A DNA stretch of 64,000 bases, from positions 5,790,483 to 5,854,482 of the forward strand of contig NC_087077.1 in assembly GCF_026151205.1 (NCBI RefSeq), given 5' to 3'. A program made the position numbers and the translations under genes. Positions 12,973-60,535 of the stretch are shown one piece after another. The notes below the pieces were generated by a model, which made no database searches, had not been told where the DNA came from, and saw nothing but the letters and a program-made list of their open reading frames with translations. This DNA comes from Bolinopsis microptera. Lineage: Eukaryota; Ctenophora; Tentaculata; Lobata; Bolinopsidae. How positions within the stretch are numbered: position 1 is the stretch's first letter; each line of letters opens with the position of its first letter.

Positions 12973-13684
12973 CGTCTGACAAGATTTTAAAGTTAATTTT
13001 AGATTAATAATAATTACAAGAATCAAACACAATTAGACACAGAAACCGAAAGATTGAAACATCAACTGACCATACATTGAAACGATACTTGACTAAAACC
13101 CACCGACGAAACATATCCGGTATGAACGTAAAGAAAAGAGAGGAAACATTGGAAGTATCACGAGCTTATTAAAAACGACCGCAAAAAGAACTACGAGAGC
13201 ACAGAATATCGATAACAAAGTTAGCTTCGGAGCTTGTTGAAACTAAGAAGACAATGATTGCACATCAAGCAAGCTTGCTCCGTTGTCAAGTGTTTAATAA
13301 ATAGTTCAGAGACGAATACTGCGCAGCTTTTAGTACAACTATAAGAGCACTTGTAAGATTTGCTTGTAGGTGGCATAAGGTGGGGAGTTATCGACAGTAA
13401 GCATGATTTAAAGTTGGTAATGATTATATAATCGTGATTTAAATCACGCCCTCCTTGTGAAGCGGTTACTTACATATTATTAAAACCTATCTTTGCAGGC
13501 AGAATAGTGTGATGTTCTTTTAACTGGCTATCTTTGATCAGATCCTATAGAAATTTATCAAATTTAAATCTTACCGATTATGACATCATATTCATTATAG
13601 GGAATTTTACGAATATTTCAACAAATATTAGTACATGATGTCATTGCTCATTATTATGGCCAGGTAGTTTCAATCAAAGATTAC
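12973..13684. other. Upstream region of the kinase-like gene
   Basis: Presumed promoter and 5' UTR of the minus-strand kinase-like gene. Around 13180-13305 the plus strand has a short open stretch rich in Lys/Arg/Glu ending in TAG that I cannot assign. Nothing else is recognised. Confidence 0.4.
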
Positions 13685-19400: not shown

Positions 19401-22400
19401 ATTTGTATTGAGAATTCGGTGCGCAGTTACGTGATCTAGTTTGTAAATTTCATCTAGTTCAAGGAGTGGTTTTATGTATCGATTTTTTTTTTTTTTTTTT
19501 TTTTTAGAGAGGCTGGGCCAAGATAGCCCACGAGAGGATAGCATTGAGATGCTCTGCCTACCTCTGGGGTGTGGCAACCTTGGGGAAGGTTGCCGGTGAA
19601 ATCAGAGTGATTGGTGGAGGATGGTGTAAGATGATATATGAGTCAAAATGATACGCTTAAATGCCAGCTGGGTTTGGAAAAGTAAAACGAGACGAGACAG
19701 CATATGAGCTAATACTTTAAGCCACCCCGGTCTGATCCAGCTCTTCCGGCACAATTAAGCGTTTGGTGCGGTTTGCGAAATTGACAATTGTGGTGATGTG
19801 TTGGTTGTCGAATATGTCATTGACAGAGAGGTAGTAGTCCTGGAAATATTGACCTCTAATTTGGGCAATAGCTGGACACTGTCCAAGGAAGTGTGAGACA
19901 GTTTCCTCTCCGTCGCCGCACATAGGACAAGCACTGGTGTTTGATTTGCAAATGGTGTGAAGGTGTTTGTTTAAGCCGCAGTGACCCGTGATGAGGTGAA
20001 CTGCAGTTCTGTAATCTTGTCTGTTTTTGCTGAGTGTAGTGTTGAGGTTTTTGATGATTTTGGCATGCTTGTGGCCGAGTGTCAGTTTGGTGTGTCTGGG
20101 ACCGTCAGTTAACCAAGTTTCCTGATTCAGTCTGTTGACTTTGTTGTCGATTTGACGCTTGATGTAGGATTGTGGAATTGGACACTTCAAAGTGGATTCA
20201 CTGGTTGTACCAAGCTTGGCCAGCTCATCTGCTTTTTCGTTCCCCCACAATCCGATGTGTGCTGCAATCCATCGTATCTCTAGCGTGTTGTTGGATCCGA
20301 GTGCATTAAGAGAGTCGTAACAGTCTCTTGTAGTTCTACTTCGCGTTGAAAGCGCAGAGATAGCTTGTATAGATGAGAGACTGTCAGACCATATGATGAT
20401 ATGTGTGTTGGTATAGGTAGAGAGATATTTGCAAGCTTCAATGATGGCGGTGAGCTCTGTTTGGTAAACAGTGCAATAATCAGGGAGCTTGAATGATCTT
20501 TCTTCAAGGGTGGTGTTATTGTTGTCAGTTGTGATGATATAGCCAGCCCCGCATCCTGAGTCTGTGAGTGACCCGTCAGTGTAGCAGGTGATCGTTTCAC
20601 TGGTAATGTTGTCGATGGTGTTTTGAAGTGAATTTCTATATTCAGTGGTATCGGCTCCAGGAGTTGTGACGGTGAAGTGCCGTCCCAGCATCATGGTTGG
20701 TGTTGTTAGGTCTCTCGTTGCTCTAGGTGGGATAATGAGGTCTGCCATGAATTGTTTGTTGATAGTGGTATGATTTTTGATAGTTCCCTTCCTGAAAGCG
20801 ATAGTTTCAAGAGTGAGGCTGCCATAAGCTTGTAGCCTGGCCGCACCCTTTGCTGCTTCGCCTTGCAGGAACAGTATGATGTCAGAAGTGTCGGTGAGGT
20901 GATTCAATGCGATAAAAGGTGTGCTTGGCATGGCACCAGACATCATTCTGAGTGCCAATGCCTGAACACGTTTGAGTTTCTTCGCGTTATAGTCCGTTTG
21001 AGTGGCCCTGATCCATATACTACAGCAGTAGGATAGGATTGGACGGATGACAGCCGTGTACATCCATTTGCATGTTTTGGGGCTCATACCCCATGTGGGG
21101 CCGACAGCTCTTCGACATTGCATGAGGGATGCCGTGGCTTTTTTGGTGGTGTTGATGATATGTTCATTGAAGTTGAGTTTGCTGTCCAAGGTCACTCCTA
21201 GAAATTTAGCAGACTTGGAAAGACCTATAATGTTGTTGCCAACTGTTATAGGTCTTAGAGTCCACTTACTATTCCAGGTAAACATGACTATCTGAGTTTT
21301 AAGGGCGCTAATAGATAGCTCTTTGGTTCTGCACCAATTTTCTATCGTTTTAATAGTTTTGCATGTTCGGTCCCAGATGATGTCTAAATCATCCCCTTCC
21401 GCTAGAGACAACAGATCATCCGCAAAGGCTTGCAGGTAACCCGGGATGTCTTTTGCGGTAAAGGAAAGGAGATCGTCGACTACCAGGTTCCAGAGAAAAG
21501 GAGAGAGAATGCCTCCTTGGGGGCAACCTCGCCTGATCCGTACCCTTCTCGACTTATCCTTATGATTTAGTGTGATGAATCGATTGGTTACCATGTTGAT
21601 GATCCACTGTGCTGTAGCCAAGTCCACTTTCGTAGCCTTGACTGCTTCAGATAGGTAGTGCGCCATCGACAGTGAGCCGCGCGTGCCGACTGTAGGATGG
21701 TTTTTTAGCGCTAATTTCGGCCAGCACAATTTTCTTCAAACAAATAGATATTGAGTATCCTTCCCGACCTCCAATTGCAACAAAAATTGGTAAGCTTACT
21801 TAAAGACTTACAAGGAAAGTGTCCGAAAAATGTAAAGCATATCCAACCATCAGACATTATGTTACAGCTAAAAGTAGCATATTTTGCCCCATTTTGATCA
21901 CTATATCAACTCCGATATCCACCAAATTTTTCGGACAGTTGTGAAAGCCCTATTGGAAGGTCGTCGCCAATTTCCAGAATGATCTCATTTAAGGAACTGA
22001 AGATAAATCCGAATAATACGACAAAAATGGTCAAATTTGGACGAATTTGGTCAAATTACGAGACTTTTACAGCTACTTTTGCTCCAAAAGCCGCGCACCA
22101 TCAAATATGGCACCTAGGCGAAACTCACTGATCTTTCCAAAAAGGTATGACAAATTTGGTATTGGGGAAATTCTCACAATCTTTAGAAAACAGTGGTACA
22201 AAAATTTTTAAAATCCGAGCAAGTTTATTTTTATCGTGCACCTCCTACTTCAGAGATAGCCTTGAACGAGACATTATCGAAGGCGCCCTCTATATCTAGA
22301 AAGACACCTAGGACATATCCTTTCTTGGCTATTCTGCGCTCAATGGTGTGAGTAACTTTATGAAGTGCCGCTTCTGTGGAGCAGCCCTTTTTAAAGCCGA

Positions 22401-28500: not shown

Positions 28501-31500
28501 ATTTATCATACATGAACTGTAGGCACCTAAATTGAATTGATTAGAATAAGTAAGTCAAAGATTTCGTTTTCCCTAATAGAAGTTTCGATAGTAAATAAAA
28601 GGAAAAATGTGTCAAAATGTATTTAATATACATTCAATTAAATCAAGTGATGCGATTGGCAGAGCACAATCAAATTTTTAGTGTTGCAATTGGCAGAGCA
28701 CAATATTTTAAATCTTTAACAATCTAATATATAAAAGTTTCAAAACGCATGATCTGCTCCATTATTTAGACTCCATTAAAGGGGCAGGGATGAGATTGTA
28801 GGAGACTTCTGATAGATGGATCTCATGTTTGGTGTCCACCTTCTTTCCCCGGTACTTAATTAAAAGAATATCCATTTGAGCATATATATTTTTACAATTG
28901 GTCAAAATATGGGTAAAAAGAAACAATAAACATATAATAACATTTATTGGAATGCGAGAATTTGTATTGTGGCAGGTGGTTGATTTAAGTGCTCCAAGAA
29001 ATAATTTTACTTTACAATAGGCAATGATGAGTGGCAGGATTTTGTAGCCCACTAATAAACATTCATCTTCAAATCTTTCGAAAATGGCATTATCTCATAA
29101 AGCAATATATTCTTGGTTTAAAAAGACAAAAAAGAAATTTTCAAAAGAAGCCTATAGAAGAAATTCTGCTTGTGTGCTTGTAAGAAATATCAATCATCTA
29201 TACGATGGGAGTTGGGACATAAGATTAAAGGCTCATAATGTTAAGTTATAGAAGTCAAGCACATTGATGCATTTGGGACAAGCCATTAGAACTCACTGTA
29301 CGGCCTCAAGTAGGAAAAATTGTGTGCTTCGTCATGGAGATGGTATGTGAGAATTCATAGACCTGTGATCTACAACAATCAATATGTTACCAATGATTTG
29401 AATATCTTTGAAAGTGTCAGATCGAGGATTCAATGAAATCTTATTTGGAGATTTTCACTTTATATCAAAGAATAGGTGATATGATGTTCTATTCTTCATA
29501 TATGTATTTACAAAAGGTCGTGAGCATACAGTCTCAAGTCTACAAACATCATTTCCCGAAACTTGTGGACGATATCAAATTTAAAGCTGGAAAAATATCA
29601 GCCAACAATACAATTTGCTTAAATAGTAAAGAATACGAAAGTTAACATCAAACTAGGCGGTTTGTTTGTTCATAAGTAGTCATTTCTTCTGCATTAGAAT
29701 TAGCGCTCGATTCATCAGGCTATCTATCTATGCATAACAATAAAAATGTATACAAGCTATATTAAAATGACTCTAGATGCATCAATTACCAAATAATTAA
29801 TTGTTTCAAAATTTATATACTGTGGTCGTACGTCGATTTTTTAATTCAAAACATGGAAATGGGTAGCGCATGGTCGCGCGCGCAACAATAAGGTCGCATT
29901 TGTGATTTCAATATTTTACATGACGTACGCGTAACGCGCGGACGCAAGCGCGACTAGCAGCGCCAAACGGGATAGAAAATAGCGCGGCTCTATTCAACTT
30001 GGTCCCATCGTGCCTTTTGAAGTAATTTAACGTTAAGCGAATTGATTGATAAATCAGAGGAATTCTTCCTGTTTCTCCCCAAACACCGACATTTGATGCT
30101 TTACGATGGACTCCCAATGCCCATTTTAGGAATGAAATATGCACTCTTTCTTGCAGAGAGGCGCTGATTTTTTTAAGTAAGTTAGTAGCGGTTGCTTCTG
30201 TCGAGTTAATCGTTTTGCAAATTAGAGATTTATTGATCGTACTAGTGGGTGTCCATATCGGAGCACCATATAATAAAATGGGCTTGATGAGAGAGTCGAA
30301 CAGTGTAAGGAGTGCTTTAAAAGATAACTTTGAACGCATGACAACCCTTTTCAGGCCAAAAAATGCACGCATTGCTTTGGTTTTAAGGTTTTGTTGAGCA
30401 ATCTGTACTTGACCCGATTGATGAAGTTCAAATCCAAGGTAACAATAACTGTCAACAATTTCAAGATTAGATCCGTTGAGTGTAAATTTGATGTTTTGTA
30501 TGTCCTGTTTTAACGTTTTCTTACCAAAGATGACTGCTTGAGTTTTGAGTTCATTGATTTCAATGCCCCACTCCTCACAAAAATTACCGAGAATATTAAG
30601 TTGCTTTTGAGTGGTTTCCTGGTCGAGTGAAAGGAGTATAAGGTCATTCGCCCACAGTAGGTGGCTTACAGTCATATTTGAAAGTACGGGGCAATTTGGA
30701 AAATCTAGGAGGCAGGACATATCACTGAGAAAAACTTTAAAAAGATCAGGTGAGAGTGGGTGACCTTGTTCTGTACCTTTACGTATCTGAAAGCGTTTAC
30801 TGAGGTGACCAGATAATTTTATGTAAGCGTACGAGTTTGAGTACATATTTTTGAGGACATTGTAGAAGTTCCCAGTTATGCCATTTTTTGCGAGTTTGAG
30901 GAAAAGGGCTTGACGGCAGACTGAGTCGAATGCTTTTTTAAAATCAACAAATACTGCATATACAGGTTTCCCCAAAAGTTTATATTTTGAAGCTATAGTT
31001 TTCATGGTTAGTATGTGATCGTATGTTTGAGCTTTCTTTGTGAAGCCTAGTTGGTTAGGTGGATCAGGGCAGTTTTCAGAGCAGAAGTGAATGAGTCGTT
31101 CTAAGAGAATAGTTGAGAATAGTTTTCCTATGACACTGCTGACAGCAACTGCACGGTAGTTGTCAGGATCTGATTTATTTCCCTTTTTATGAAGTGGAGA
31201 TATAATGCTGACGTTCCAGGGATAAATTCCTTGTGAGAAGCAGGCGTTGAAGAGGTTCAACATAATCAATTTATGATTGGTGTCCAGAGATTTTATAATT
31301 TCGTTATTAATCATGTCGAGTGAGGAAGCTTTACCATTTTTAGGGATTTTATACTAGAGTCAAGTTCTGTTTTGGTGATTAAGGAGTTGAGTGACTCAGG
31401 ATGAGTTGCATCTTGATTTATCAAGTCAGCTTGATCAATCATAGAAACTTTTTTATTTTCATTTATTGTTTTGTGGTTATCGGAATATAGGCTACCAAAA

Positions 31501-34500
31501 AAAGTCTCGAATCTATTCATATCATGACTGTCAAAATTTAAAGTTTCCTTTTTCTGATTTTTTAGTTTTTTGAAAGATTGCCAGTTGAGAATTTTCCCCC
31601 CCTCTATGTCCTCATTCATACGTGCGAAGAATTCGTTTTTGGCAGAGTTCTTCAAACGCTTATAGCTACCCTTGACAAGATAATAGTTTTCACGTATAAG
31701 GTTGTTTGACGGGAATTTTGAGGTTGCATCTGTAGCTTTACGAAATTCTCTTTTACCTAATCTCGTTTTCCAGTTAAACCAAGGTTTGTTTGAGGTGTGA
31801 GATTTTTTGGGTGGTTTGGTTTGTTTGAAACACTTCGAGGCCATGTCGCGAAGATGTTCTGAAAGTCGTTTGTTAATGTCTTTGAGTTCAGTTTCATAAT
31901 TACGGTCATTGTCTGCTAAAATATTTTGATTGGTGAGTAAGTCGATGTTTGATTGAAGTTCTTGGATTAAGGTCAATGATAGATTTTCTGACTGAGCTTC
32001 GAAAAAGTCGTCTTTGTTCTCTTCGTTGATAATGTATCTGGTTGGCGCTGTCTGATAAGTGTCCTGTAATGGGGCGCATTTGTTGATCGCGAATCTATTG
32101 CATTTTAATTCAGTACTGAGGGGCTTATGATCAGAATGCTCGGTGAATGTCAAGATTTTGAAGTAGTTGATTCTGATCTTTGTGGAGTTGGTCACTGCAA
32201 TGTAATCAATAACGCTGCACCCATTTTTTTGGATACTTGTGAAGTTTCCTACAAGATCTCCTAGGGTACGGCCATTCAGAATAGTGAGTTGGTTATGTTT
32301 GACTAGGTTAAGAAAGTGTGTACCGTAAGTATTTGTGATAGAGTCTAGTGAGTTTCGGGGGAGAAAGTTGTCAGGCTCATAATCGTCTGGTAAGGGAACA
32401 ACGTTGGTTGAGTCTTCTCTTATCATACCCGTTTTTTGTCCTATACGAGAGTTAAAGTCCCCACACAATATGACTTCGCCCTCCTCCCGAAGTTCGTTCA
32501 CAACGTCTTCAATGTTTTTTAGAGCATCTTTGCCATTGTCAGTCGGGTTTGAGGCTGATGAATTAAATGGTCTAATGTAAACGTTAACTATGAATGTATC
32601 TTCTGATAGGTTAAAGAAATCCTTGTCTAGTCGACAAACTAGGTAGTCTGAACACTTTGTATTCTTGATAAACTCAATCCCTTCAATAAGCTCATTTTTA
32701 ATGAGGATACCGACACCTCCTGATTTACCGTCTTTCCTTATGTTGCAGATTGATCGATATCCTACCAAGTGAACCTCTCTCCTAATTTCCTGAAGACAGG
32801 CTATGTCATGATCTTTGATAACATTTTGAAATGATTCTATTTCAAATTTGCTCCCATCTACTGATGAAGGCGATTGGATATTCCAAGAAAGTATTTTTAT
32901 GCTATTTTTATTAATTGAAACCTGTGTATTTTTTTTGTGCGTTTCTAGTCATGGTATAATGTGTATAAATGAGAATCTATGTCAGTGTAATCACATTCGA
33001 CTAAGAGGAGAAGGTTCCAATCCTCCTGTAGAACGGACTTTCTTTGGCTTGTTGAGAAGCAGTCTTGTCATTTCATGGATGCTGTGACGGAAGTTTCCTA
33101 GGATGACCTCTTTGCCTCTTGTTGAAAGGTGGACTCCATCGTTCGTGTGATACTCTCCTATCAGATGATCATCATGCATGAAGTTTGCGTTGGGGTTGTA
33201 ATACAAAGACCGCTCTTTGAAGGGTTTGCGTTCGTTTTTATTAGTTACAGTCACAAATTCCCAAATTGCATCCCTTATCTCCCCAATCTTTGCGTTCGCT
33301 TCATTGTCAGATGTCATTAGCGGCATTGAGAAGAATAACTTTGTACCTATCAGGGATTCCTCTACGAATAGTGAAAATTGAAATATGTTGTCGAGACTTA
33401 CCCTTAGGTCGAAGTTTTGGTTGGCATCATTGACTCCTAGGTGAACATAGATGAAATCAGGTTGTGTTCTTAATAATTCTTCTTTGACATGTTGGTCTTT
33501 AAGTCCGCCTGTGTCCCGCTTGTTGATTAGGGTCAATTCATGGTTCTTTCCGAGAGCATTCTTGGTGTCCATACCCTGGACATGTCTCAGGATTGAGTCT
33601 GAGATGAGGGTCGTCTTGAACACTTTTGAGGGTGTGGTGGATCCTGAAGTTTGACGAGTGAAGTCGGAGTTCTGAGTTCTGGTGAAGGCGGAGTTCTGAG
33701 TCCTGGTGAAATTGAGGTTCTGAGTTCTGGTAAAGTTGGAGTTCTGAGTTTGAGTAGAGTTCTGAGCTCGAGAGGCCGAGGAAGTCATGCTGAATCCATT
33801 GTTTCTTCGGGACAGCAGGTTGTTTTCTCTACTGTGAGTTCTTTGATCTCGAAAGGGTGAGGGAGGTTGGTAGGGTGGAGTGTGTGATAAATCATCGTCA
33901 TTAGGGGAATAGTCAGGTGGGACATCGGTACTCGCGCCATTCCATCCTTCTGACTGAGTGACTATTTTGTGAATTTCTTTAATCAGCTGTCCGTCTTCCC
34001 GAAAGAATGCACTGTTGTAGTAGTTTTTGAGGTCAAACTTTAGTTTTTGAACACTTTTGTCTACTTCGTCCGTTTTCGTTTCCGCTATAGAAATCTCCGT
34101 GAAAACTTCGTCTACTCTGTTTTTGATCCGTGTGGTAGCTGACAAGTTTTTCTCCCAGAGGTCTTTGACCTTTTGCATTTCCTTCTTGCCAACCTCGAGT
34201 AGTTTTTCGATTTGCTGGATGCTAGTATCGGAGCACTTAAGACTGTTAACCTCAGATGTAAGTTTCTCCAACTCCTGCTTAACGTCAATAACTTGGTTCT
34301 CGATAATAGTCTGGACCCATGCGAGAGAGGGGAGTTTCGAATCTAAGTCCCTATTCAGAGAGCTCCTTGCTGGTTCTTCGGGTCTAGACATCACATTCAT
34401 CATTCTTGCTCTCCTTTCTGTAACAGATCCTTCTGTGGAGCACCATGTGATCCATGGATTGAATTTAATTGACATAGAAATGTTCACATGTCAATTCTGT

Positions 34501-48364: not shown

Positions 48365-51300
48365 TTATGCATCAATCCTTCGGTAGATCGGCGAGATGCA
48401 CCACTGTGCCTCACCGAGCTGCGAAGGATTGACATCGTGAATCAAGATATTAACCTTCTTCCTCTTAGCTACCAATGGATTCTCTTTCATATAACTTACA
48501 TAACTATTCCTATTAGACACAGACACATCTATCCTATCAAAGATGTCATATGAAAGTTCCCAGTGATGACCAAGCTTATTAGCTCGATATCCATGAAGCC
48601 GAAAGGCATCTAATCCTCTCTTGAAACCAGTAACTGACTCACTAGCTTTCACAAGTGGTGGTAGACTGTTCCAATAGCGCAAGACCCTTTGGGCAAAGAA
48701 ATCAGTCTCATTTGTGGTGAATCTATGAGTCTTTGATCTAGCAGCAACGGTCCTACCAGAACGACCAAATAAATCGGAACCATAACCCACAAAGCCTTCC
48801 TGGATCTTGAACATCTCAATGAGATCTCCACGAACCCTGCGTTCAAGCAGGGTTGTGAGGTTCAGCTTATCCAGTCTCTCTCTGTACGTCATGAGTCCCA
48901 ATCCATCAATCATACGGGTGAACGATCTTTGAACACCTTCCAATTCAAGAATCAGTGACCAGTTTCCATGCCTAGCCATTGGAGCCCATGCCTGTGAACA
49001 ATACTCTATATGAGGCTTTACTAAAGACTTATACAAGCCCAGCATAACGCTTTTCTCCCTCGATATAATATTTCTTGTAAGCCAGGCAATGGTACTATTA
49101 GCTTTAGCAATGCACTTTCTCACATGACCCTCAAAGTTGAAGCTGGTGTTAAAGACAACTCCAAGGTCCTTCTCGCTTTCAACACATCTCAAAGGCACAC
49201 CACCAAACAAGTACTGATTCTTAGGATTACAAGAACCAATTTGCATGACCATACACTTATCTACATTAAAATTTAAACACCAACGAGACTCCCAAAGTTC
49301 TAGCAACTTCAAATCAGCTGCTAGATTAATAAAAGGATTAACAATCATTTTAACATCATCAGCGAAAAGTTTGATGATAGCTTTGATTCCTTCTGGAAGA
49401 TCATTTACAAATAAAAGAAAGAGCAATGGTCCCAAAACACTGCCTTGGGGCACTCCTGAAAGTATATACTTAATCTCAGAAAATTCATCTCCTACTTTAA
49501 CTTTCATAGACCTCCCTACTAAAAAGTTTTCTAAAATACCAATTATCTCCTCAGGAACACCAACATTTCTTAATTTAACTAATAAACGGTGGTGTGGTAC
49601 GCTATCAAAGGCCTTAGAGAAATCAAAGTATAATATATCAGCACAGCCACCTTCAGCCAGCAAGTCATTGACAGCGTCAATAGACTCCAGTAGGTTAGAT
49701 AAGCATGACCGACCCTTCATGAAGCCGTGCTGCGTGCTACTAAGCACCTGTTCAACACCGTCGAGAATATACTCCCTAAGAAGCTTCTCATAGGCTTTGC
49801 ATAGTATACAAGTCAGTGACACAGGCCTGTAATTATTAGGACTATGTACTGACCCCTTTTTGTGCAAGGCCACAACAGTGGCAGTTTTCCATACCTCAGG
49901 AATATACTGCTCAGAAGCACAGGCACTAAACAGCAACACAACCGCGTCCACAAAGGAACTGTTCTCACTTAAATACCTCAGGAGTCTAGGATGAACACCA
50001 TCAGGACCCATAGCTTTACTAATATCTAGTGATCCCAAAATCTTGGCAACACTTTCAGGGTGCACCATAAATTTACTCCAGAAGTAATCATTATTACATT
50101 CTGTATAACAATTTTGAGGCAGAGGGCCAAAAGGTTCAGGTTTAAAAACTGACTGGAAAAAATCAGCTAACACTTCTGCCGTTTCAGAAGGAGACTTGGT
50201 CTCAGAACCATCATCTGTTTTAAGTCTTTCTACAGATTTTCTTAAAACACTTTTAGATTTAAGGTAATTAAAAAGAGGTTTACAATTTAACTTAAACAAT
50301 TTAGTCACTTTATTCTCATATTTGATCTTTGCCTTAATCTCAGCGTTCTGGTACATCCGCTGCTCGTACTCGGCTGCGTTAAACATCACCATCGTAGGGT
50401 CCTCGTCAAAATCCTTCCATGCCCGGTCCTTGCACTTTCTTTTCCTAACCAGACTAGAGCAATCCCAGGGTAACCTCTGTAAGATCTCCCCACCTTTAGT
50501 TGTTTTAAGGTGGGTGGTTGGAACACGATCTGAAATGACACTACGTTTTTGGTGTAATTCTTCCCACATCTCTTCGACCTGAAGATCTTCTCTAGAGTAC
50601 CCCCAGCTGATGTCTGATGACTGTGTGTTAACAAAGTCCTGATCCACCTTATACCAGCTTTTCTTCTTAGATGTAAGGAACTCGACATTGTTTTTGACTT
50701 TCAGCTCGACCAGTAGTGATACATGATCGCTTTTACCCAGAGGAGCAAGGATATCAACATTATTTACAAAACAATCATTATTGCAGAAGACCTGATCAAG
50801 CAAGGAGCATTGAGTTGTATCACCAACCTTCCTGACACGTGTCGAAGACCCAGTGACATACCACTTCAAACCTTTCCTGGTAAAGACATTCAAGAATTCT
50901 GATTCCATCAGCAACCTTCTGTCACATGAGTTTGGTGGGCGCTCGACTAGACTTTTGTCCCAGTTAACATGAGGTAGGTTCACATCGCCAACTATCACCA
51001 ACTCTTCATCCGCATTAACTGGTAAACGTTCAAGAGCACCTAACAGGCCAGCATTGTCCTTCATATCAACAAGTGAAGTAGACCGATACAGACAAACAAC
51101 ATTGAACCTAACAGAGTCGATTACAATATTTACCGCAAGTGATTCAAGACCAGTAAACCAATCCAATCGTTCTACCCTCAGTGCTTTGTGGACAAAGATA
51201 GCAGATCCCCCAAAACGTGTATCATTAGGTCTGTCTGCACGAAAGAGGTTGAAATTAGGAATAGACACTTCAGCGTCAACAATATCTGAATTTAGCCAGG

Positions 51301-51397
51301 ACTCTGTCACACAAATGATCTGAACGTCGTGAGTCTCTGACAAAACCATGAGTTCCGTCATCTTATTGTACAGGGAATTAGCATTAGTGTACAGCAT
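48365..51397 (-). CDS. CR1-like ORF2: APE endonuclease plus reverse transcriptase
   Basis: Intact 1010-codon frame; it remains open upstream of the first Met into the ORF1 end. Endonuclease in about residues 1-235: NANSLYNKM, VTESWLN (catalytic Glu), GDVNLPHVNW and the closing GKSDHVSLL. A linker of about 200 residues follows. RT in about residues 440-780: NYRPVSLTCILCKAYEKL, YFDFSKAFDSVPH, SGVPQGSVLGPLLFLLFVND and the FADD catalytic box. The thumb and tail have YKSLVKPHIEYCSQAW and RVLRYWNSLPP. The protein would nick target DNA and copy its own mRNA at the site. All catalytic motifs seen are intact. Confidence 0.9.
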   Translation of the reverse strand: MLYTNANSLYNKMTELMVLSETHDVQIICVTESWLNSDIVDAEVSIPNFNLFRADRPNDTRFGGSAIFVHKALRVERLDWFTGLESLAVNIVIDSVRFNVVCLYRSTSLVDMKDNAGLLGALERLPVNADEELVIVGDVNLPHVNWDKSLVERPPNSCDRRLLMESEFLNVFTRKGLKWYVTGSSTRVRKVGDTTQCSLLDQVFCNNDCFVNNVDILAPLGKSDHVSLLVELKVKNNVEFLTSKKKSWYKVDQDFVNTQSSDISWGYSREDLQVEEMWEELHQKRSVISDRVPTTHLKTTKGGEILQRLPWDCSSLVRKRKCKDRAWKDFDEDPTMVMFNAAEYEQRMYQNAEIKAKIKYENKVTKLFKLNCKPLFNYLKSKSVLRKSVERLKTDDGSETKSPSETAEVLADFFQSVFKPEPFGPLPQNCYTECNNDYFWSKFMVHPESVAKILGSLDISKAMGPDGVHPRLLRYLSENSSFVDAVVLLFSACASEQYIPEVWKTATVVALHKKGSVHSPNNYRPVSLTCILCKAYEKLLREYILDGVEQVLSSTQHGFMKGRSCLSNLLESIDAVNDLLAEGGCADILYFDFSKAFDSVPHHRLLVKLRNVGVPEEIIGILENFLVGRSMKVKVGDEFSEIKYILSGVPQGSVLGPLLFLLFVNDLPEGIKAIIKLFADDVKMIVNPFINLAADLKLLELWESRWCLNFNVDKCMVMQIGSCNPKNQYLFGGVPLRCVESEKDLGVVFNTSFNFEGHVRKCIAKANSTIAWLTRNIISREKSVMLGLYKSLVKPHIEYCSQAWAPMARHGNWSLILELEGVQRSFTRMIDGLGLMTYRERLDKLNLTTLLERRVRGDLIEMFKIQEGFVGYGSDLFGRSGRTVAARSKTHRFTTNETDFFAQRVLRYWNSLPPLVKASESVTGFKRGLDAFRLHGYRANKLGHHWELSYDIFDRIDVSVSNRNSYVSYMKENPLVAKRKKVNILIHDVNPSQLGEAQWCISPIYRRIDA

Positions 51398-51429
51398 CCT
51401 GATACCCTGTGATTCCTTTACGCAACTCG

Positions 51430-52450
51430 CTACTCGTTTTTTGACTTCACAGCATTCTGGACAACATCTTCTTTATTATCCGCATGCTCTACATTTGTTA
51501 CAGGAGCCACATCAGTTGGCAGTTCCTCTTTGGGTGGTTTGTCAGCAGTTACTTTCGTCCTCTTATCAGTTTCCAGTTTAGCATTGCGTGTGTTCCACCG
51601 GATATCTCGATCCGCCTTGATCAAGTCAGGATTTATCCACACATCATCACTTTTCTTTTTTCCATGATAAGCAAACCCGCGTCCATGGTTGTGTGTGTAA
51701 GTAGCTAACTCTTCACTCTTTAGCTTCGCAATGACCATTCTTCCCCTGTACTTTGTACGGTTGACGTTGCCAAATACACCTATTCTCTTTGCTGATACTA
51801 TGTCACTCTGGTTAAGATCTGTTGCATGTCGACAGATGATAGCCTTTAGTTGTTCCTGACTCTCATTTTCCTTATCTTCATCAGGTAAGTTTGACAGAAC
51901 AATGTTATTCTCCCGCTTTTTCCTTTCCTGCATGTTAGCATCAATCTGTTGTGAGATGGTGGTTATTGCAGGGCCTGCTGCGTGCTGACACACTTCAGCT
52001 ATCAATTTCTTCTGCTGCCCACTGGCTATCTCAGCCCAACTCTATCTTCTTATTGGCTTCTGAAACAACATCATTTACAAGAACCTTCTGGATAGATTGT
52101 TCCACACTGGCGCTGACAGCAGTCTGTATAACACTTGTCAGTTCTTTAGCAACGTCATCAGTAAGTTTTTCAAATTTGAGTTTCTCAGGCAAAACGAAAC
52201 AAAAGTGGCAGTTCCACACTGTCAGCTTCTTGACATCTGTAACGGTTAGACCAGCCAAACCGGCACAACTACTATGCCACCAATTCTCACATGTTGAACA
52301 ACCTAGCCAAACAATCTTCTTTCTCGAAAGTGGTTCATCATACTTCTGACAATAGAAGCATATCTCCTTTCTCTCGTTAGTTTCTGTACTGGCTGGGTCA
52401 CTATCGATGTGCCCCGTTTGCCCGCCATTGTTAGCCATCCCTGAACTCAA
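51430..52450 (-). CDS. CR1-like ORF1 with PHD finger, one apparent frameshift
   Basis: The first part (52450-52031, 139 codons) holds a PHD-type zinc finger: CFYCQKYDEP, WLGCSTCENWWHSSCAGL and WNCHFC. The second part (to 51430) is a basic domain with a helical segment and KRENNIVLSNLPDED, GVFGNVNRTKYRGRMVIAKL, a nucleic-acid-binding-like region usual in ORF1 proteins. The frames differ by one base: the run ccc at 52035-52037 (GGG on the minus strand) has one base too many for a single frame of about 335 codons. PHD/ZnF ORF1 proteins are known in CR1-group elements and would coat the element RNA. Confidence 0.8.
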
Positions 52451-53412: not shown

Positions 53413-53480
53413 TGATTATATTTTTAGTACTTATAGTTAGATAGATACTTATTATATTTTTAGTACTTATAGTTAGATAT
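53413..53480. repeat. Tandem duplication upstream of the AlkB frame
   Basis: The phrase tatatttttagtacttata followed by gttagata occurs twice, about 41 bp apart. The second copy contributes the TAG that limits the open frame. Confidence 0.8.
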
Positions 53481-53482
53481 AG

Positions 53483-54640
53483 AAACCCACTATATTTGAG
53501 AATAGGACAGTTGCATATTATGGGGACTTTCCATACGCTTACAATGGAGGCTTTCATAACACAAGGCCAGTAGCAGACAATCCCTACCTAAAGTCTATTT
53601 TAGAACGCTTACGCTCACAGTTCCCAAAGTTGAAATTCAATAGTGCTATGATTACCAAGTATAGAAATGGTCAGCAAGGAATTCCCTTTCACTCGGATGA
53701 CGAGAGGTCAATTTCACCAGGCTCCATGATGTCCACCATCTCTTTAGGGGCTACTAGAGTCCTAAGCTTCAGATCCAAACTGAGAGCTCATATTGCTGAC
53801 CTTACCCTCTCCCATGGTGACATAATGAATATGACCAGACAATCCCAGACCAGCTTTGAACACAGCCTCATCCAGGACAAGTCTAAAACCATGAGAATAA
53901 GCATTACTCTGCGCCTAATTGATGGCAGCGCAACCTTATCCACTCTGTCTGATGTTTCCAGTCAAGTTAAGAACACTGAACCCTCGGCCCCTAAGACTAG
54001 ATCAATAGAACATTCTGGTAAATCTTTGTGTGTCTACATTAGCTCTAGTATGTTCTCCAAATTAGAGGGAGAAAAGCTATCGTCCAAACATCATGAGGCA
54101 CCTGTATTCAGCTACCCTGGTGCCACAGCCAATGCAATCAATGAACGGTTTCAATCAGATGTAAGAAAAGACACTCTTAATACCAATAATGTGAAAAGCA
54201 TTGTACTTATGTGTGGTACAAATGACGTGGACTCTATCCTGAACAGCCCTCGCAACATGAGGACTAAACTTCTGTGCCCTGATAGTTTTTCTGGTGATGC
54301 TAGAGCTCTTGACTTTACAAACAATTGTATTGAAAAACTTGTACTTTTCCTTCACAAGTGGGCACCTGGAGCTGATATTAAAATTGTTAACTTATTACCT
54401 CGGGAGAGTTTCTCCAGAAACAAGGTTATAACAGATATCAATGAATGTATATCAAATCTGCAAAGAAAATACACCTATGTAAAACTGCTCTCAACCGAGA
54501 CAAATCGTTTCTTGTTTAGTGATAAGAAAGGCTTTAGAAAATCGTCATTTTTTAGTAGTTATGGAGAGGATAATGTCCATCTCAATGATTATGGCATAGT
54601 TAAATTAGCAAGGCACTTGAAGTATCATGCACACCATTAG
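53483..54640 (+). CDS. LINE ORF1: AlkB-type 2OG-Fe(II) dioxygenase fused to SGNH esterase
   Basis: The frame is open from 53483, although the first in-frame Met lies later (ATG at 53648), so the true start is upstream or unusual. AlkB part (to about 53930): AYYGDFPYAYNGG, then FNSAMITKYRNGQQGIPFHSDDE with the iron HxD (His 53690, Asp 53696), SLGATRVLSF, the distal His in FEHSL (53861), and the 2-oxoglutarate/substrate arginines in MRISITLR (53894 and 53912). AlkB enzymes remove alkyl groups from RNA or DNA bases. The SGNH part (about 54030-54640) has VYISSSM (nucleophile Ser near 54047), a Gly block YPGATANAIN, CGTNDV (Asn 54221) and DNVHLNDYG (Asp 54569, His 54578). Both active sites look complete. 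A role in repairing the element RNA is inference. Confidence 0.85.
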   Translation, partial: KPTIFENRTVAYYGDFPYAYNGGFHNTRPVADNPYLKSILERLRSQFPKLKFNSAMITKYRNGQQGIPFHSDDERSISPGSMMSTISLGATRVLSFRSKLRAHIADLTLSHGDIMNMTRQSQTSFEHSLIQDKSKTMRISITLRLIDGSATLSTLSDVSSQVKNTEPSAPKTRSIEHSGKSLCVYISSSMFSKLEGEKLSSKHHEAPVFSYPGATANAINERFQSDVRKDTLNTNNVKSIVLMCGTNDVDSILNSPRNMRTKLLCPDSFSGDARALDFTNNCIEKLVLFLHKWAPGADIKIVNLLPRESFSRNKVITDINECISNLQRKYTYVKLLSTETNRFLFSDKKGFRKSSFFSSYGEDNVHLNDYGIVKLARHLKYHAHH

Positions 54641-54795
54641 AATACTGCTGAATACTGACATAACACTCCTACCATCAGTTTTATTTTTACAGTACGACAT
54701 CCAGACAAATACAACCTGCTTTTATTCTGTTTTTCAGTTTAAACACAACTTTACAACTTTTATTCATTCCATTGTGAATTAATAAGATTTACAAG

Positions 54796-57771
54796 ATGAC
54801 AAATTTTAATAATGCAGCTGATAGGTTTCACAACCTCTGCATTGGTCATTGTAACATTCAAGGAGGGCTTCTTAATTTAGGTAAAAGTAATGAACTTTCC
54901 CAACTTATTAGAGATCATAAATTAGACATACTTTCCCTAAATGAGATGAATCTTAATGAAACTATTGACACAGACACCATAAATATTCCTTCCTCCTTCA
55001 ACCTTATGCGATGCGACAGGCCAAACAGTTCTAGGGGTGGTTGTGGCTTAATGATAAACAAAAAACTAGCTTACACAGAATTAATTATGGATAGTAAGCT
55101 TGATAACATTGAAGCATTATGGGTGAAGCTTAAGAATAGCAAGATCAATGTTTGCTGCTTCTATCGCTCTGGAAATTATTGCAGTGTTGATAACTTTATT
55201 GAATACATTAATTTTTGCATGAAAAAATTGAATGGGAAAAAGGTTATCTGGATTGGGGATATAAACATTGACCAGAATAATATCTCATCCACCCAGTACA
55301 AAAAATTAGATATGACCTTGAGATGTTACAATCTAGTTCAAACCATTCAAGGGATAACTAGAGTTGCTAAACGTGGAGACAATTTTACCCAGACTACTAT
55401 TGATGTAATATTCACTAACTGTTATGCAGATTTTGTTCAATCTTCTGTTCTTGATGAACGTATTGGGGATCATCAAGCTATTATGTGTGAGATAGATTGT
55501 AAAGTACCTATAGCTCCTAAATTTGAAAAGGTTGAAATTAGAAATCATTGTAAACGTAATGTTAAACAATTCTTAGACTATCTAGATACCTGTTCTGATT
55601 ACAGTCCACTATTGGAAAGTGCAGATGTTGAAGCTATCACTGCTGGCCTTTGTCATCATATTGAACAGGCATATGCAACCTTCTTCCCTTGCAAGACCAT
55701 AGAAAGGCATGAAAAGTTCATACATAAACCTTCTACTGAACTTTTAAATGCCATTAATCATACACATTTTCTTCTAAAGAAATTCCGTAAAAAGAAGGAT
55801 AAGAGAGACAATGGAAATTGCAATAAATGTGGTACATGTAGCAAATGTATAAAGTGTAATGAGGCCTGGGATTGCTACAAGATTCAGAGAAATATTAGAA
55901 ATAAATTAGCTAAAACCTGCAAAAAGGCTAATGTAATCGATGATCTACAAGTTAAAAGTGCCAAGAATGATCTTAAAGGGATATGGAAAACTATCAAACT
56001 GGCATCAAATATGACCCCTGGTACAACTAATTGTCAAACTATCAATGAGAATGATCCTGAGCTATTTAACTTTCATTTTGCAAATGTTGGATCAATATTA
56101 CAAAATCAGGCCCCCAATATTGAAAGAGTTAGTTTTACTGATTTTTTACCTCCTAGAACTTCTAACATCTCATTTGATAGATTCCAAGAAATAAATGAAA
56201 CTGATATCCTAATGTATGTCGAAACTCTCAAGAATGACAAGGCCTCATATGACGATGTGCCTCTATTTTTACTTAAGCAAGCTGTACCACACATAGTTGA
56301 GCCACTGACCCATATTGTCAATTTGAGCCTTAATACAGGTGTTGTACCAACCCTTTGTAAAAAAGCTAGAGTAACTCCCATCCATAAGGCAGGAATGAAA
56401 GATGATCCTAATAATTACAGGCCAATATCCATCCTTCCACTTGTAGGAAAACTTATAGAAAACTTTGTCGGCAAGCAACTCACTGATTACATGGAAGAGA
56501 ACAAACTTTTCATCCGGCATCAATATGGCTTTCGGAAAAATCACTCCACAACTTATTTGATGTACGATCTGATGGACGAAATATATATGAGTAAATCTAA
56601 GTCTTATAAACCAGGAATCATCTTTCTTGATCTTAAGAAGGCCTTTGACACAGTGAATCATGAAATATTGCTTCAAAAATTGGCATATTATGGAATTGGT
56701 GGCATTGCTTTAACCTGGTTTAAGAACTTCTTATCTTGTAGATATCAATGCACAAGGATCAATGGCAAACTAAGCTCATTTTTAGAAGTTCTGAGTGGTG
56801 TACCACAAGGAAGCATCATTGGGCCTATATTATTTAGTATCTTCATAAATGACATCATTTATGCCTGTAACCTATCTAAGCCCTTTCTATTTGCAGATGA
56901 TGGTGCACTATTCTTTGATCAAACCTGCAGAAGCACATTTATAAACATGAAAATAGAACTTATGACAATCTTTAAATGGCTCAGTGTTAATAAGTTATCA
57001 CTCAATGAAAAGAAGACTGAATTCCTATTATTTGATTCTGTTGATAAACATGATGAATTAACCATTGAATGTGATGAGGTAACTTTCACAATCAAGGAGT
57101 GCAAAGAGACAAAATATCTTGGCCTCATTCTAGATAGTAAATTAAACTTCAAAAGCCATGTAGATTATATTATTAGGAAGGTCATGAAGAGAATTGGTGC
57201 CATGTATAGAAGTAAAGCACTGCTACCCATTAAATATAGGAAAATGTTTGCCAATGCACTCATGTTGCCACAATTCGATTATTTAGACACGATCTATTGT
57301 AGAGCTGGCAAGACAAAACTTGCTGAACTTGACACTCTGTACAAAAAGGTAGCCAAAATAGCTCTCAACGTTCCACAAACAGAGAGCAGCCTTAATGTTT
57401 ATAGAGACATGAAATGGTTACCACTCCATCTTAGACGACAACTCCATCTGTCAAATTATATGTTTAGAATCATCCATGACAATTGTCCTACAAACTTTAT
57501 GAACAAATTTAGTTACATATCAGGAGGTAGTAGGAGCGGCGAAAGCTGCAACCTATATGTTAATAGATCAACATCACATAAAAACTTTCAATACTTGGGG
57601 GCAAAATGTTGGAATAATGTTCCAACAGATCTACGAAATCTGCCCGATGTTAAAAGCTTTAGTGATTCGTATAAGAAACAGCTACTCTCATCTATAACAA
57701 CAGACCCTTATTATACCGTCGACAATTCATATGACAAATTTTACACTGCAATCATAGTCGACGATAACTAA
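54796..57771 (+). CDS. LINE ORF2: APE endonuclease, Cys-rich insert, reverse transcriptase (L2/CR1 group)
   Basis: Intact 991-codon frame from ATG to TAA. Endonuclease in about residues 8-240: IGHCNIQGG, LSLNEMNL (catalytic Glu), VIWIGDINID, TIDVIFTN and IGDHQAIM. The linker contains a cysteine cluster at residues 342, 345, 348, 351, 354 and 360 (C-x2 repeated four times, then C-x5-C), which I do not know from related ORF2s. RT in about residues 510-790: ARVTPIHKAG, NYRPISILPLVGKLIE, FLDLKKAFDTVNHE, SGVPQGSIIGPILFSIFIND and FADD at 699-702. The C-terminal region has YLGLILDSKLNFKSHV and CWNNVPTDLRNL. Nothing disabling is seen. Confidence 0.9.
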   Translation: MTNFNNAADRFHNLCIGHCNIQGGLLNLGKSNELSQLIRDHKLDILSLNEMNLNETIDTDTINIPSSFNLMRCDRPNSSRGGCGLMINKKLAYTELIMDSKLDNIEALWVKLKNSKINVCCFYRSGNYCSVDNFIEYINFCMKKLNGKKVIWIGDINIDQNNISSTQYKKLDMTLRCYNLVQTIQGITRVAKRGDNFTQTTIDVIFTNCYADFVQSSVLDERIGDHQAIMCEIDCKVPIAPKFEKVEIRNHCKRNVKQFLDYLDTCSDYSPLLESADVEAITAGLCHHIEQAYATFFPCKTIERHEKFIHKPSTELLNAINHTHFLLKKFRKKKDKRDNGNCNKCGTCSKCIKCNEAWDCYKIQRNIRNKLAKTCKKANVIDDLQVKSAKNDLKGIWKTIKLASNMTPGTTNCQTINENDPELFNFHFANVGSILQNQAPNIERVSFTDFLPPRTSNISFDRFQEINETDILMYVETLKNDKASYDDVPLFLLKQAVPHIVEPLTHIVNLSLNTGVVPTLCKKARVTPIHKAGMKDDPNNYRPISILPLVGKLIENFVGKQLTDYMEENKLFIRHQYGFRKNHSTTYLMYDLMDEIYMSKSKSYKPGIIFLDLKKAFDTVNHEILLQKLAYYGIGGIALTWFKNFLSCRYQCTRINGKLSSFLEVLSGVPQGSIIGPILFSIFINDIIYACNLSKPFLFADDGALFFDQTCRSTFINMKIELMTIFKWLSVNKLSLNEKKTEFLLFDSVDKHDELTIECDEVTFTIKECKETKYLGLILDSKLNFKSHVDYIIRKVMKRIGAMYRSKALLPIKYRKMFANALMLPQFDYLDTIYCRAGKTKLAELDTLYKKVAKIALNVPQTESSLNVYRDMKWLPLHLRRQLHLSNYMFRIIHDNCPTNFMNKFSYISGGSRSGESCNLYVNRSTSHKNFQYLGAKCWNNVPTDLRNLPDVKSFSDSYKKQLLSSITTDPYYTVDNSYDKFYTAIIVDDN

Positions 57772-58700
57772 GTATCTTCTATTTCTTTTAAATCTGAGGA
57801 ATATATAATTGAAGTGTCGAAAGGATATTCCCTTGTTTACCACCTTACCATTCTGATTGATTCTGCACATGACTGACATGTTTTAACTGGAGAAGGGGTT
57901 CGCACAGTGGTAGTTTTATAAACCACTTTTAATTTATTGACCTATTATACCTAGTGGTAGTTTTACAGACCACATTTAATTTATTAACTTATTATACTTA
58001 GTATTTATTTTTGGTGACTGTATCACCCAGTACAGTTTTAACATTTGATAATTGTACAGTTTATTGACGACACATTGACCGAATGTTATTTTAATATATT
58101 CTAATTTATATACTAGATATTTTATTTATTTTCCAACAGACGACAACTTGCTGTTTTTTTTCCTTCTATATTAGTTACTCATATCTCTTGTACAGACTGT
58201 TCTACAAGGACATTGACAGATGATACTCATATTAGGCATTCATTATTGCATCTAAATTATTTCACTTGCATTAGGTTTAGAAATTTATTCTCTGGTTAAC
58301 AGATTTCAAATGTTTAATTAATTTGTAGTATGACAGTATATAAGAAGTTATTTAATTTTGCTTGGGCTGTTGTGTTGACTGTTGGGGTTTAGTGGTGGTA
58401 TGGAATTTGAATTTTATATAAATTTACACTATGAGGTTGGGGCATTTTGCATAGTAAATATGGTTACTACTCAGCTCCTATATATCATATTATTTGATCG
58501 GTATTCGATTTCTGATTATTTCCCTAGGAATATGATTATTATATCTCAATTTGGCTTTAGGTAGGGTGCCCCGCTAAAAGAACTGGATTCTTCCAGGAAG
58601 CATCCCGTGCACAGAGCTTGGTCTACATATATATTAAATTATTAACCATTCATTCTGTATGTGCACGAAAATTTATTTCAATCAATCAAAGTACTGTGTT
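57772..58700. other. LINE 3' UTR and flanking AT-rich sequence
   Basis: Follows the ORF2 stop. Contains the duplicated gtggtagtttta segment followed by accac and ttaatttatt. The boundary of the element is not visible. No gene recognised; the 60-codon frame at 58382 has no likeness. Confidence 0.45.
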
Positions 58701-58910: not shown

Positions 58911-59069
58911 ATAGACACCTAAATTGCTAAATAAAATGTTCAAATTTTGCTGTTATAGGGGGATCATGTTTTTTGTCCGTTCGGTACCCTATATTTTCAA
59001 AACGGACAAAAAATAGAGTGGACAAAAACGGTCAAAAATGGACAAAAACGGACAAAAATGGAAATAACA

Positions 59070-60535
59070 TTTAGATGCTTCCTCCTCCTACTCTTCCTCC
59101 TCCTCCCCCTGGGTCTTCCTGATCTTCCTCAGTCCTCTTCCTCCTCCCCTCCTCAGTCCTCCTCCTACTCCTCCTCCTCGTCCTCAGTCCTCCTCAACAG
59201 TCCTCAACAGTACTTCTCCTCCCCAGTCCTCCTCCTCCTCCTGGGTCCTCCTCCTGGGTCTTCCTCCTCCTCCTCTTCATCCTCCTCCTCTTCCTCCTCA
59301 GTCCTCAGTCCTCCTCAGTCCTCCTCCTCATCCTTCTCCTCAGTCCTCCATCCTCCTCCTCAGTCCTCCCCCAGTCCCCCTCCTCCTCCTCCTATTCAGT
59401 CCTCCTCCTCCTCCTCCTCCTTCTCAGTCCTCCTGAGTCCTCCTCCTCCTCCTGAGTCCTCCTCCTCCTCCTCCTCCTCTTCCCTCTCAGTCATCCTCCT
59501 CCTCCTCTTCATCCTCCTCCTCAGTCCTCCTCCTCCTGGGTCCTCCTCCTCCTCTTCATCCTCCTCCTCTTCCTCCTCGGTCCTCAGTCCTCCTCCTCCT
59601 GGGTCCTCCTCCTCATCCTTCTCATCAGTCCTCCTCCTCCACAGTCCTCTCCCAGTCCCCCTCCTTCTCCTCCTCCTATTCAGTCCTCCTCCTCCTCCTC
59701 AGTTCTCCTCAGTCCTCCTTCTCATTTCTCCTAAGTCCTCCTCCTGAGTCCTCCTCTTCCTTCTGAGTCCTCCTCCTGAGTCCTCCTCCTCCTCCCTCTC
59801 AGTCATCCTCCTCAGTCATCCTCCTCATCCATCCTCCCCAGCCATTCCTCAGCCATCCTCCTCAGTCCTCCTCAGTCCTCCTCCTTCTCAGTCATCGTCA
59901 GTCCTCCTCCTCAGTCCTCCTCCTCCTCCTGGGTCCTCCTCCTCCTCCTCCTCCTGGGTCCTCCTGGGTCTTCCTGATCCTCCCCAGTCCTCTTCCTCCT
60001 CCCCTCCTCAGTCCTCCTCCTACTCCTCCTCCTCGTCCTCAGTCCTCCTCACCAGTCCTCAACAGTTCTCCTCCTCCCCAGTCCTCCTCCTCCTCCTGGG
60101 GCCTTTTCCTGGGTCCTCCTCCTGGGTCCTCCTCCTCCTGGGTCCTCCTCCTCCTGGGTCCTCCTTCTCCTCCTCAGTCCTTCTCCTCCTCCTCCTCAGT
60201 CCTCTTCCTCCTCCTCCTCCCTCTCAGCCATCCTCCTCAGTCCTCCTCCTTCTCAGTCCTCCTCAGTCCTCCTCCTGAGTCCTCCTCCTGAGTCCTCCTC
60301 CTGAGTCATCCTCCTCAGTTCTCCTCCTCCTCCTCCTAGGTCCTCCTTCTGGGTCCTCCTCCTCCTGGGTCTTCCTGATCCTTCTCCTCCCTCTCAGTCA
60401 TCCTCCTCAGTCATCCTCCTCAGCCATCCTCCTCAGCCATCCTTCTCAGCCATCCTTCTCAGCCATCCTTCTCAGCCATCCTCCTCAGTACTCTTCAGTA
60501 CTCTTCAGTACTCTTCAGTACTCTTCAGTCCTCAA
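59070..60535. repeat. 1.46-kb polypyrimidine tract (CCTCCT-rich)
   Basis: Almost purely C/T on the plus strand with regular single purines in cagtcctcctcctc- and ctgggtcctcct-type phrases. The 229-codon Ser/Pro/Leu frame at 59058-59747 is an artefact of the repeat. Mirror-symmetric pyrimidine runs of this kind can form triplex DNA. Confidence 0.9.

Follow-up and report, generated by a model that had tools for sequence, protein, structure and literature searches.

The window analysed here is the whole 64,000-nt stretch of Bolinopsis microptera DNA, and positions refer to it throughout. On its forward strand lies a LINE copy whose first coding part is a single open frame of 385 codons plus stop (53483-54640; 53483-54637 without the stop). 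The frame corresponds to codons ~170-550 of the family's ORF1 and its stop codon, as judged from the open frame and from relatives, and has no native start codon. An AlkB-type 2OG-Fe(II) dioxygenase domain (53561..53914, + strand) is matched by the Pfam model 2OG-FeII_Oxy_2 (PF13532) at 64.3 bits against a cut-off of 31.2 over residues 27-144, and by a family profile at 210 bits over residues 4-148 (~53492-53926). The catalytic set is complete, with an HSDDE sequence at residue 70 (the HxDxE motif, 53690-53704), a distal His and RISITLR for R-x5-R. No second AlkB was found when the family profile was run against the window's other open frames of at least 50 codons. An SGNH hydrolase domain follows in the same frame (54011..54637, +), carrying an SSSMF block, GTND and D-x-x-H, and the family SGNH profile, which was built from relatives of the window's ORF1 protein itself, scores 301 bits over residues 177-385. 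Both motif sets had been read from this frame in the original prediction and both are present. Its expectation for Pfam, a dioxygenase match and then an SGNH hydrolase match, is borne out in order and in its first half, while Lipase_GDSL_2 reaches 22.7 bits over residues 206-371, under its cut-off of 32.9.

After a 155-nt spacer (54641..54795) comes the intact ORF2 that had also been predicted right downstream, a frame of 991 aa (54796..57771, +) encoding an endonuclease (Exo_endo_phos, PF03372, 28.4 bits) and a reverse transcriptase with an FADD motif (RVT_1, PF00078, 124.8 bits). A protein search with ORF2 returned 152 relatives, with a top identity of 97%. The 3′ UTR (57772..58687, +) ends in a short AATCAATCA tail and was delimited by comparing it with four other copies aligned at their 3′ ends; its end at ~58687 is read from the sequence and is accurate to a few bases. 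At the other end, the junction of the copy falls within 53471..53495 (+). DNA similarity to a full-length copy (L034) begins at 53471, which is position 1682 of L034; at the protein level, three longer relatives align from 53495 onwards. ORF1 of L034 has 550 residues, of which residue ~170 aligns with the start of the window frame, and the 5′ boundary of L034 (position 911-915) is common to many fetched copies. Because similarity to longer relatives begins only at ORF1 residue ~170 of 550, the window copy is a 5′-truncated insertion that lacks the start of ORF1, about 169 of its 550 residues and the beginning of the AlkB region. Position 53483, given earlier as the limit of ORF1, does open the frame but is merely the codon after a stop.

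The element is a non-LTR retrotransposon, with an endonuclease and reverse transcriptase ORF2 behind ORF1 and dispersed copies, many of them 5′-truncated, that share a common 3′ end. By its traits it is probably CR1/L2-like. Its ORF1 is not a plain esterase (type IV) ORF1, as the SGNH domain is not the sole enzyme domain and is preceded by AlkB. Two likely host genes lie in the same window, one for a 7TM receptor (546-1832, +, 31 bits) and one for a choline/ethanolamine kinase (11782-13032, −, 177 bits).

Copies, relatives and constraint

Searching the genome assembly (264.65 Mb, 232 contigs) with the ORF1 fragment gave 110 matches, a number that, like our other match counts, is a lower bound. 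The best 30 of these 110 cover 325 or more of the 385 residues at 98-100% identity. Of these 30, 23 sit in open frames 551-552 codons long, the matched part of one being broken by a stop; the remaining matches form groups near 72%, 38-39% and 37% identity. So many near-identical copies point to a recently active family. An ORF2 start adjoins ORF1 in all 30 loci (L001-L030, with only 64 residues of it in L013) and likewise in L031-L034, so that dozens of copies in the genome, besides the database relatives, share the order beside a reverse transcriptase that the original prediction had anticipated.

For a census unbiased by ORF1, we used the first 400 residues of ORF2 as query, obtained 106 matches and kept the 82 that begin within the first 16 residues. 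Judged by coordinates, 66 of these 82 ORF2 starts are closely preceded by a match to ORF1 or AlkB. They divide into 55 of the 66 starts with an identity of at least 77% and 11 of the 16 at about 49%. Five of the 55 have only the end of ORF1 (query starts 132, 144, 203, 253 and 278) and were counted as truncated, including those at 132 and 144, which begin just inside the AlkB end. Among the other 16 ORF2 starts, for which ~1.7 kb upstream was examined, L072 and L073 carry AlkB in a broken frame, and in the remaining 14 the similarity to the element stops in ORF1, in the spacer or in ORF2. None of these 14 upstream stretches (~1.7 kb each) has a frame with an AlkB profile match or one resembling a different ORF1. 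Three of the 14 may be interrupted rather than truncated, since an ORF1 match including AlkB lies 2.2-4.4 kb farther upstream. In total, AlkB is present, at least in part, upstream of 63 of the 82 ORF2 starts, and 19 are truncated or interrupted.

Beyond the genome, a protein search with the window's ORF1 returned 121 relatives; among the 120 listed, three are proteins of Mnemiopsis leidyi. Our alignment combines the window copy and 81 of these 120, a hand-picked set made up mostly of the longer ones. PF13532 matches all 82 aligned rows and Lipase_GDSL_2 matches 37 of 82 at E 0.001. Nine residues are invariant in 82 of 82 rows (H187, D189, E191, H246, R257, R263, S336, G360 and N394), and D510 and H513 of the SGNH D-x-x-H motif are kept in 80. 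In the 39 relatives outside the alignment, H187/D189/E191 are found in 31 and H246/R257/R263 in 37, the remainder being gaps. Eight fragments among the 120 listed relatives thus lack H187/D189, and two of these also lack H246/R257/R263, in each case as gaps; neither the window copy nor any of the 120 listed relatives has a substitution at an AlkB metal or 2OG residue. The consensus ORF1 consists of a Cys/Leu-rich N-terminal region, then AlkB, then SGNH. Pattern matches in viral contigs and genome contigs yielded no confirmed further relative, and an Rfam search gave no match. The fusion of AlkB with SGNH is thus genuine and conserved as the ORF1 layout of a LINE family. This supports the structural half of the original prediction, whereas the demethylation of element RNA or cDNA that it went on to infer is a candidate role.

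Coding constraint was estimated by the NG86 method. For the AlkB part, dN/dS is 0.086 (dS 1.15) between L034 and L031, which represent two families, and 0.087-0.146 for five close copies compared with L034; the pair L038-L032 gives 0.113. In the further element types introduced below, three LINE-B pairs lie at 0.037-0.050, two LINE-C pairs at 0.156 and 0.234, and three Helitron-type pairs at 0.161-0.199. Synonymous sites in AlkB are saturated in the comparisons of L034 with L032 and L033, in L042-L050 and in L041-L049. Values this far below 1, for which the original prediction had proposed to test, indicate that AlkB is under purifying selection, where a ratio below 1 speaks of constraint and not of function. 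The ORF1 N-terminus is poorly conserved (39% identity between L034 and L031). Of five close pairs compared there, four have a nominal dN/dS above 1 and the fifth, L020, has 0.69; we do not claim positive selection because the changes are so few, just 2-5 synonymous and 12-17 nonsynonymous.

These results bear directly on the outcome that the original prediction had named as fatal to it, a functionless piece of a host ALKBH gene inserted by chance in one copy. The genome does contain host ALKBH2 and ALKBH3-like genes, and nothing beyond their presence speaks for a capture of this kind. The copy census rejects it, with AlkB at 63 of 82 ORF2 starts, and so do the relatives in Mnemiopsis leidyi, the selection estimates and an AlkB tree (below) that parts most of the element domains from the host genes. 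We regard chance capture as practically discounted.

AlkB in other mobile elements

The Pfam AlkB model finds at least 151 matches in this genome, and all those listed are above the cut-off. In a fetched sample of them, three are host-type genes and the others lie in frames of mobile elements. We refer to the LINE groups as LINE-A, to which the window's LINE belongs, to LINE-D, letters coined for this analysis. LINE-B frames (L040, L048 and L052, the last with a broken ORF1) encode AlkB, a Ser-rich and coiled-coil-like stretch and an SGNH-like part, followed by a different reverse transcriptase. In LINE-C (L041, L042, L049, L050 and L051) a PHD-like finger precedes AlkB and the SGNH-like part, and the ORF2 behind this ORF1 opens with a Cys-rich stretch; the PHD match is under the cut-off, at 16.7-22.4 bits, in five of five frames. 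LINE-D (L047) has AlkB and an SGNH-like part without the D-x-x-H block. A further type (L035/L039, L036 and L037) has the order SGNH, Pro/Ala-rich stretch, AlkB, the reverse of that in the LINEs. Here L039, contiguous and in frame with L035, adds DUF6570, a Helitron_like_N replicase domain (82.2 bits) and a PIF1 helicase (79.1 bits), which marks the combined locus (G000:C10:16871500-16885600) as Helitron-type. The open frames are long (3388 aa in L035 and 2459 aa in L036). The replicase is reached only in L035/L039; L036 is covered to DUF6570, and L037 stops early, with its SGNH start outside the fetched stretch.

In the element frames that were scanned, AlkB scores 67-83 bits, above the cut-off, whereas the SGNH part falls under the curated Pfam cut-off in every singly scanned frame. 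GDSL models reach 12.7-30.3 bits in L031-L033, L035, L036, L038, L040, L041 and L047-L051. L042 has no GDSL match at E 0.01, and its SGNH assignment follows from motifs and 17.5 bits with the family profile. Both the window copy and the 16 element frames examined retain complete metal and 2OG motifs in AlkB; in L050 and L051 the last of these motifs takes the form RYSFTFR. This conservation bears on the possibility that the AlkB fold serves ORF1p chiefly as a nucleic-acid-binding module in place of a missing RRM, with catalysis secondary. Esterase-type ORF1 proteins indeed have no known RNA-binding domains (PMC3905857), which would leave such a role to be filled. A fold kept for binding is hard to reconcile with metal and 2OG residues that show no substitution in the 120 listed relatives wherever they are present, and we hold this reading to be quite improbable.

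In all complete element frames examined, an SGNH-like part, recognised by motif or by a weak profile match, stands beside AlkB in either order. The pairing is what would be expected if the two enzymes acted sequentially on one substrate, or if AlkB targeted a protein or lipid partner instead of nucleic acid; we know of no precedent for such joint chemistry. Against it stands another LINE of the window (29908-34487, −), whose ORF1 (32991-34487) matches SGNH weakly and the AlkB profile not at all and is accompanied by an endonuclease frame (31311-32768) and a reverse transcriptase frame (29908-31314). In an 18-row reverse transcriptase tree this SGNH-only LINE and LINE-B are joined (100/99), apart from LINE-A and LINE-C, while the placement of LINE-D is open, with long branches. 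Since an AlkB-less LINE groups there, AlkB seems optional in the reverse transcriptase clade of LINE-B, and since that element has no AlkB, SGNH does not need AlkB. Joint chemistry is accordingly, in our estimate, very improbable.

From the 5′ UTR through ORF1 to ~140 nt into ORF2, L034 and L031 are 51-89% alike per 100 nt; past that point identity jumps sharply to 94-100% and stays there to the end of the compared stretch. Because the jump falls shortly inside ORF2, cassettes of 5′ UTR and ORF1 seem to have been exchanged between LINE families against a near-constant ORF2. Such exchange has been proposed in general terms for CR1/L2 ORF1s (PMC4120745).

A third LINE of the window (48365-52450, −) is CR1-like and has a 1010-aa endonuclease/reverse transcriptase ORF and no AlkB. 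Two ORF1 pieces of this element were seen at 52031-52450, with a weak PHD-finger match (19 bits), and at 51430-52005.

AlkB class and proposed function

Among PDB sequences, a phmmer search with the window's ORF1 finds ALKBH2 and ALKBH3 chains closest (E ~1e-12 to 1e-10, best 1.8e-12). The family profile gives 95 bits to ALKBH3, 91 to ALKBH2, 27 to E. coli AlkB and 21 to ALKBH5, and no other AlkB class in the PDB reached E 0.01. ALKBH2 and ALKBH3 are thus the closest solved relatives and have HxDxE, the distal His and R-x5-R in common with the element domain. The residue before the Glu of HxDxE is N in 40, D in 34, S in 6, Y in 1 and K in 1 of the 82 rows, where ALKBH2 has HxDDE. The Asn of the N-x-Y motif contacts 2OG. 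Its position is mostly Thr here, also in the window copy (T 66, H 8, N 5, Q 2 and S 1 of 82 rows), and the aromatic position is Tyr in 74 and Phe in 8, so substrate or kinetics may differ. As the family mostly reads T-x-Y for N-x-Y, we call the domain ALKBH2/3-like rather than an orthologue. By sequence it resembles this class and not ALKBH5, a class that does not by itself settle the substrate.

The host-type frames are L043, which is ALKBH2-like (207 bits to ALKBH2), L044, which is ALKBH3-like (139 bits to ALKBH3), and L045, also near ALKBH3 (99.5 bits). In a tree of 41 AlkB domains, LINE-A, LINE-C, LINE-D and the Helitron-type elements lie with two further proteins on one side of a branch with 96/95 support; on the other are the host, bacterial and remaining proteins together with LINE-B, whose AlkB falls on the cellular side with 89/87. 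The LINE-A, -C, -D and Helitron-type domains thus differ from the stand-alone host repair enzymes ALKBH2 and ALKBH3 in branch as well as in their mostly T-x-Y motif. Topology tests do not reject a tree that unites every element AlkB in one clade (p-AU 0.173); trees in which the Helitron-type AlkBs stay outside those of the LINEs are borderline (p-AU 0.051 and 0.052). An AlkB-only protein search (23 matches) found no eukaryotic source gene; the named bacterial matches are Pseudoalteromonas AlkB proteins at 64-65 bits.

ALKBH2 and ALKBH3 demethylate adenine at N1 and cytosine at N3, positions on the base-pairing face where a methyl group brings polymerases to a halt; single strands are the preferred substrate of ALKBH3. 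The class thus suggests an enzyme that repairs N1-methyladenine and N3-methylcytosine more than one that erases m6A. In keeping with this, we propose, at about an even chance (roughly 0.5), that the element-encoded dioxygenase clears base-methyl lesions from single-stranded intermediates. ORF1p would coat the element RNA in a particle, and the SGNH domain would attach this particle to membrane lipids, as proposed for the esterase of the fish element ZfL2-1. AlkB would then oxidatively strip Watson-Crick-face methyls, of the 1-methyladenine/3-methylcytosine type, from the exposed single-stranded RNA template and the nascent cDNA, where such methyls would block reverse transcription. In Helitrons the domain would presumably act on the single-stranded DNA intermediate; a base demethylase acting on single strands would be usable by both element classes.

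Several elements of this scheme have precedents in the literature. E. coli AlkB acts on 1-methyladenine and 3-methylcytosine (PMC544882). The SGNH domain of ZfL2-1 is hydrolytic and binds anionic phospholipids but not oligo(A) RNA; the coiled coil of ZfL2-1 forms dimers (PMC3905857). The same text describes RepBase esterase ORF1 proteins as having no RRM and no other known RNA-binding domain, which would leave room in ORF1p for an enzyme that binds nucleic acid.

The contending view of the substrate is that AlkB erases a regulatory mark of the host (m6A in RNA, 6mA or another mark in DNA) and not lesions, as a means of evasion. An ALKBH5-like ORF of an orchid Ty3/Gypsy element is an m6A demethylase in vitro (PMC9289625), and human L1 retrotransposition is affected by METTL3 and ALKBH5 (PMC7873242). 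The family profile, far nearer ALKBH2/3 (91-95 bits) than ALKBH5 (21 bits), disfavours an ALKBH5-type m6A eraser, with the reservation that class does not fix substrate, and an HxDxE motif with an invariant Glu, preceded mostly by N or D, resembles the HxDDE of ALKBH2. We retain erasure of a host mark as a rival and judge it unlikely.

Returning to lesion clearance, the occurrence of AlkB across element types suggests that mobile elements of several kinds, each with its own AlkB and SGNH-like domain, repair or shield their own single-stranded copies. More tentatively, and somewhat short of an even chance, AlkB and SGNH would form a portable two-enzyme module that was acquired or exchanged among several ctenophore LINE lineages and Helitrons, keeping single-stranded intermediates free of base methylation, with the ORF1 cassette swapped independently of ORF2. 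It would have been taken up or passed on, on this account, because both element classes expose a single-stranded intermediate that needs to be free of base methylation.

Relation to known systems

Parts of this picture are already known: viruses and an orchid Gypsy element carry AlkB, and there are LINE ORF1s of SGNH type. The esterase (type IV) ORF1 of CR1/L2 LINEs such as zebrafish ZfL2-1 is likewise an SGNH ORF1 upstream of an endonuclease/reverse transcriptase ORF2 (PMC3905857, PMC4120745), and the zinc finger/leucine zipper of type IVB is resembled by the Cys/Leu-rich N-terminal segment of the window's family. The main text of those two papers mentions neither AlkB nor a dioxygenase, whereas the window's family has AlkB between the N-terminus and SGNH. 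The orchid Ty3/Gypsy element (PMC9289625) is likewise a retrotransposon encoding an AlkB-family enzyme, but it is an LTR element with a separate ALKBH5-like m6A demethylase ORF; here an ALKBH2/3-like domain with SGNH is found in a non-LTR ORF1 and in Helitron-type frames. With an ORF2 of endonuclease and reverse transcriptase and an AlkB that is not ALKBH5-like, the window's element does not belong with AlkB-bearing Gypsy elements. The unrelated LTR and Penelope-like retroelements of bdelloids (PMC5408684) similarly share accessory enzyme ORFs within one lineage, one of them an SGNH hydrolase. The extra ORFs there are a GDSL esterase and DEDDy and not a dioxygenase, AlkB being unmentioned in the main text. 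Viral AlkB domains (PMC544882) offer another case of AlkB in a replicating agent, viral and not a LINE. We found no description of AlkB in a LINE or Helitron in the titles and abstract openings searched, and subscription journals or Repbase may hold one.

Viral AlkB domains sit in plant RNA virus replicases, and to our knowledge they have no SGNH partner. The ORF1 proteins of LINEs are poorly understood, and few of them contain enzymes. If the proposal is true, a base demethylase conserved in ORF1 would make base methylation that blocks reverse transcription a real constraint on retrotransposition or a host weapon against it, and would open this idea to testing. The AlkB/SGNH pair in frame with a Helitron replicase would link elements that transpose through RNA and through DNA by way of their single-stranded intermediates, and the abundance of AlkB matches makes this genome an unusual setting for studies of nucleic-acid demethylation.

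Some minor features complete the window. Just past the AlkB-SGNH LINE is a simple-repeat stretch coding for Ser and Pro (59058-59747), and repeat frames like it were seen upstream of two 5′-incomplete copies (L061 and L064). A LINE fragment with reverse transcriptase and RNase H domains lies at 19717-21729 (−), and at 3368-4180 a 21-nt unit is repeated in tandem over a long array that stays open in several frames (MSHTVTV repeats).
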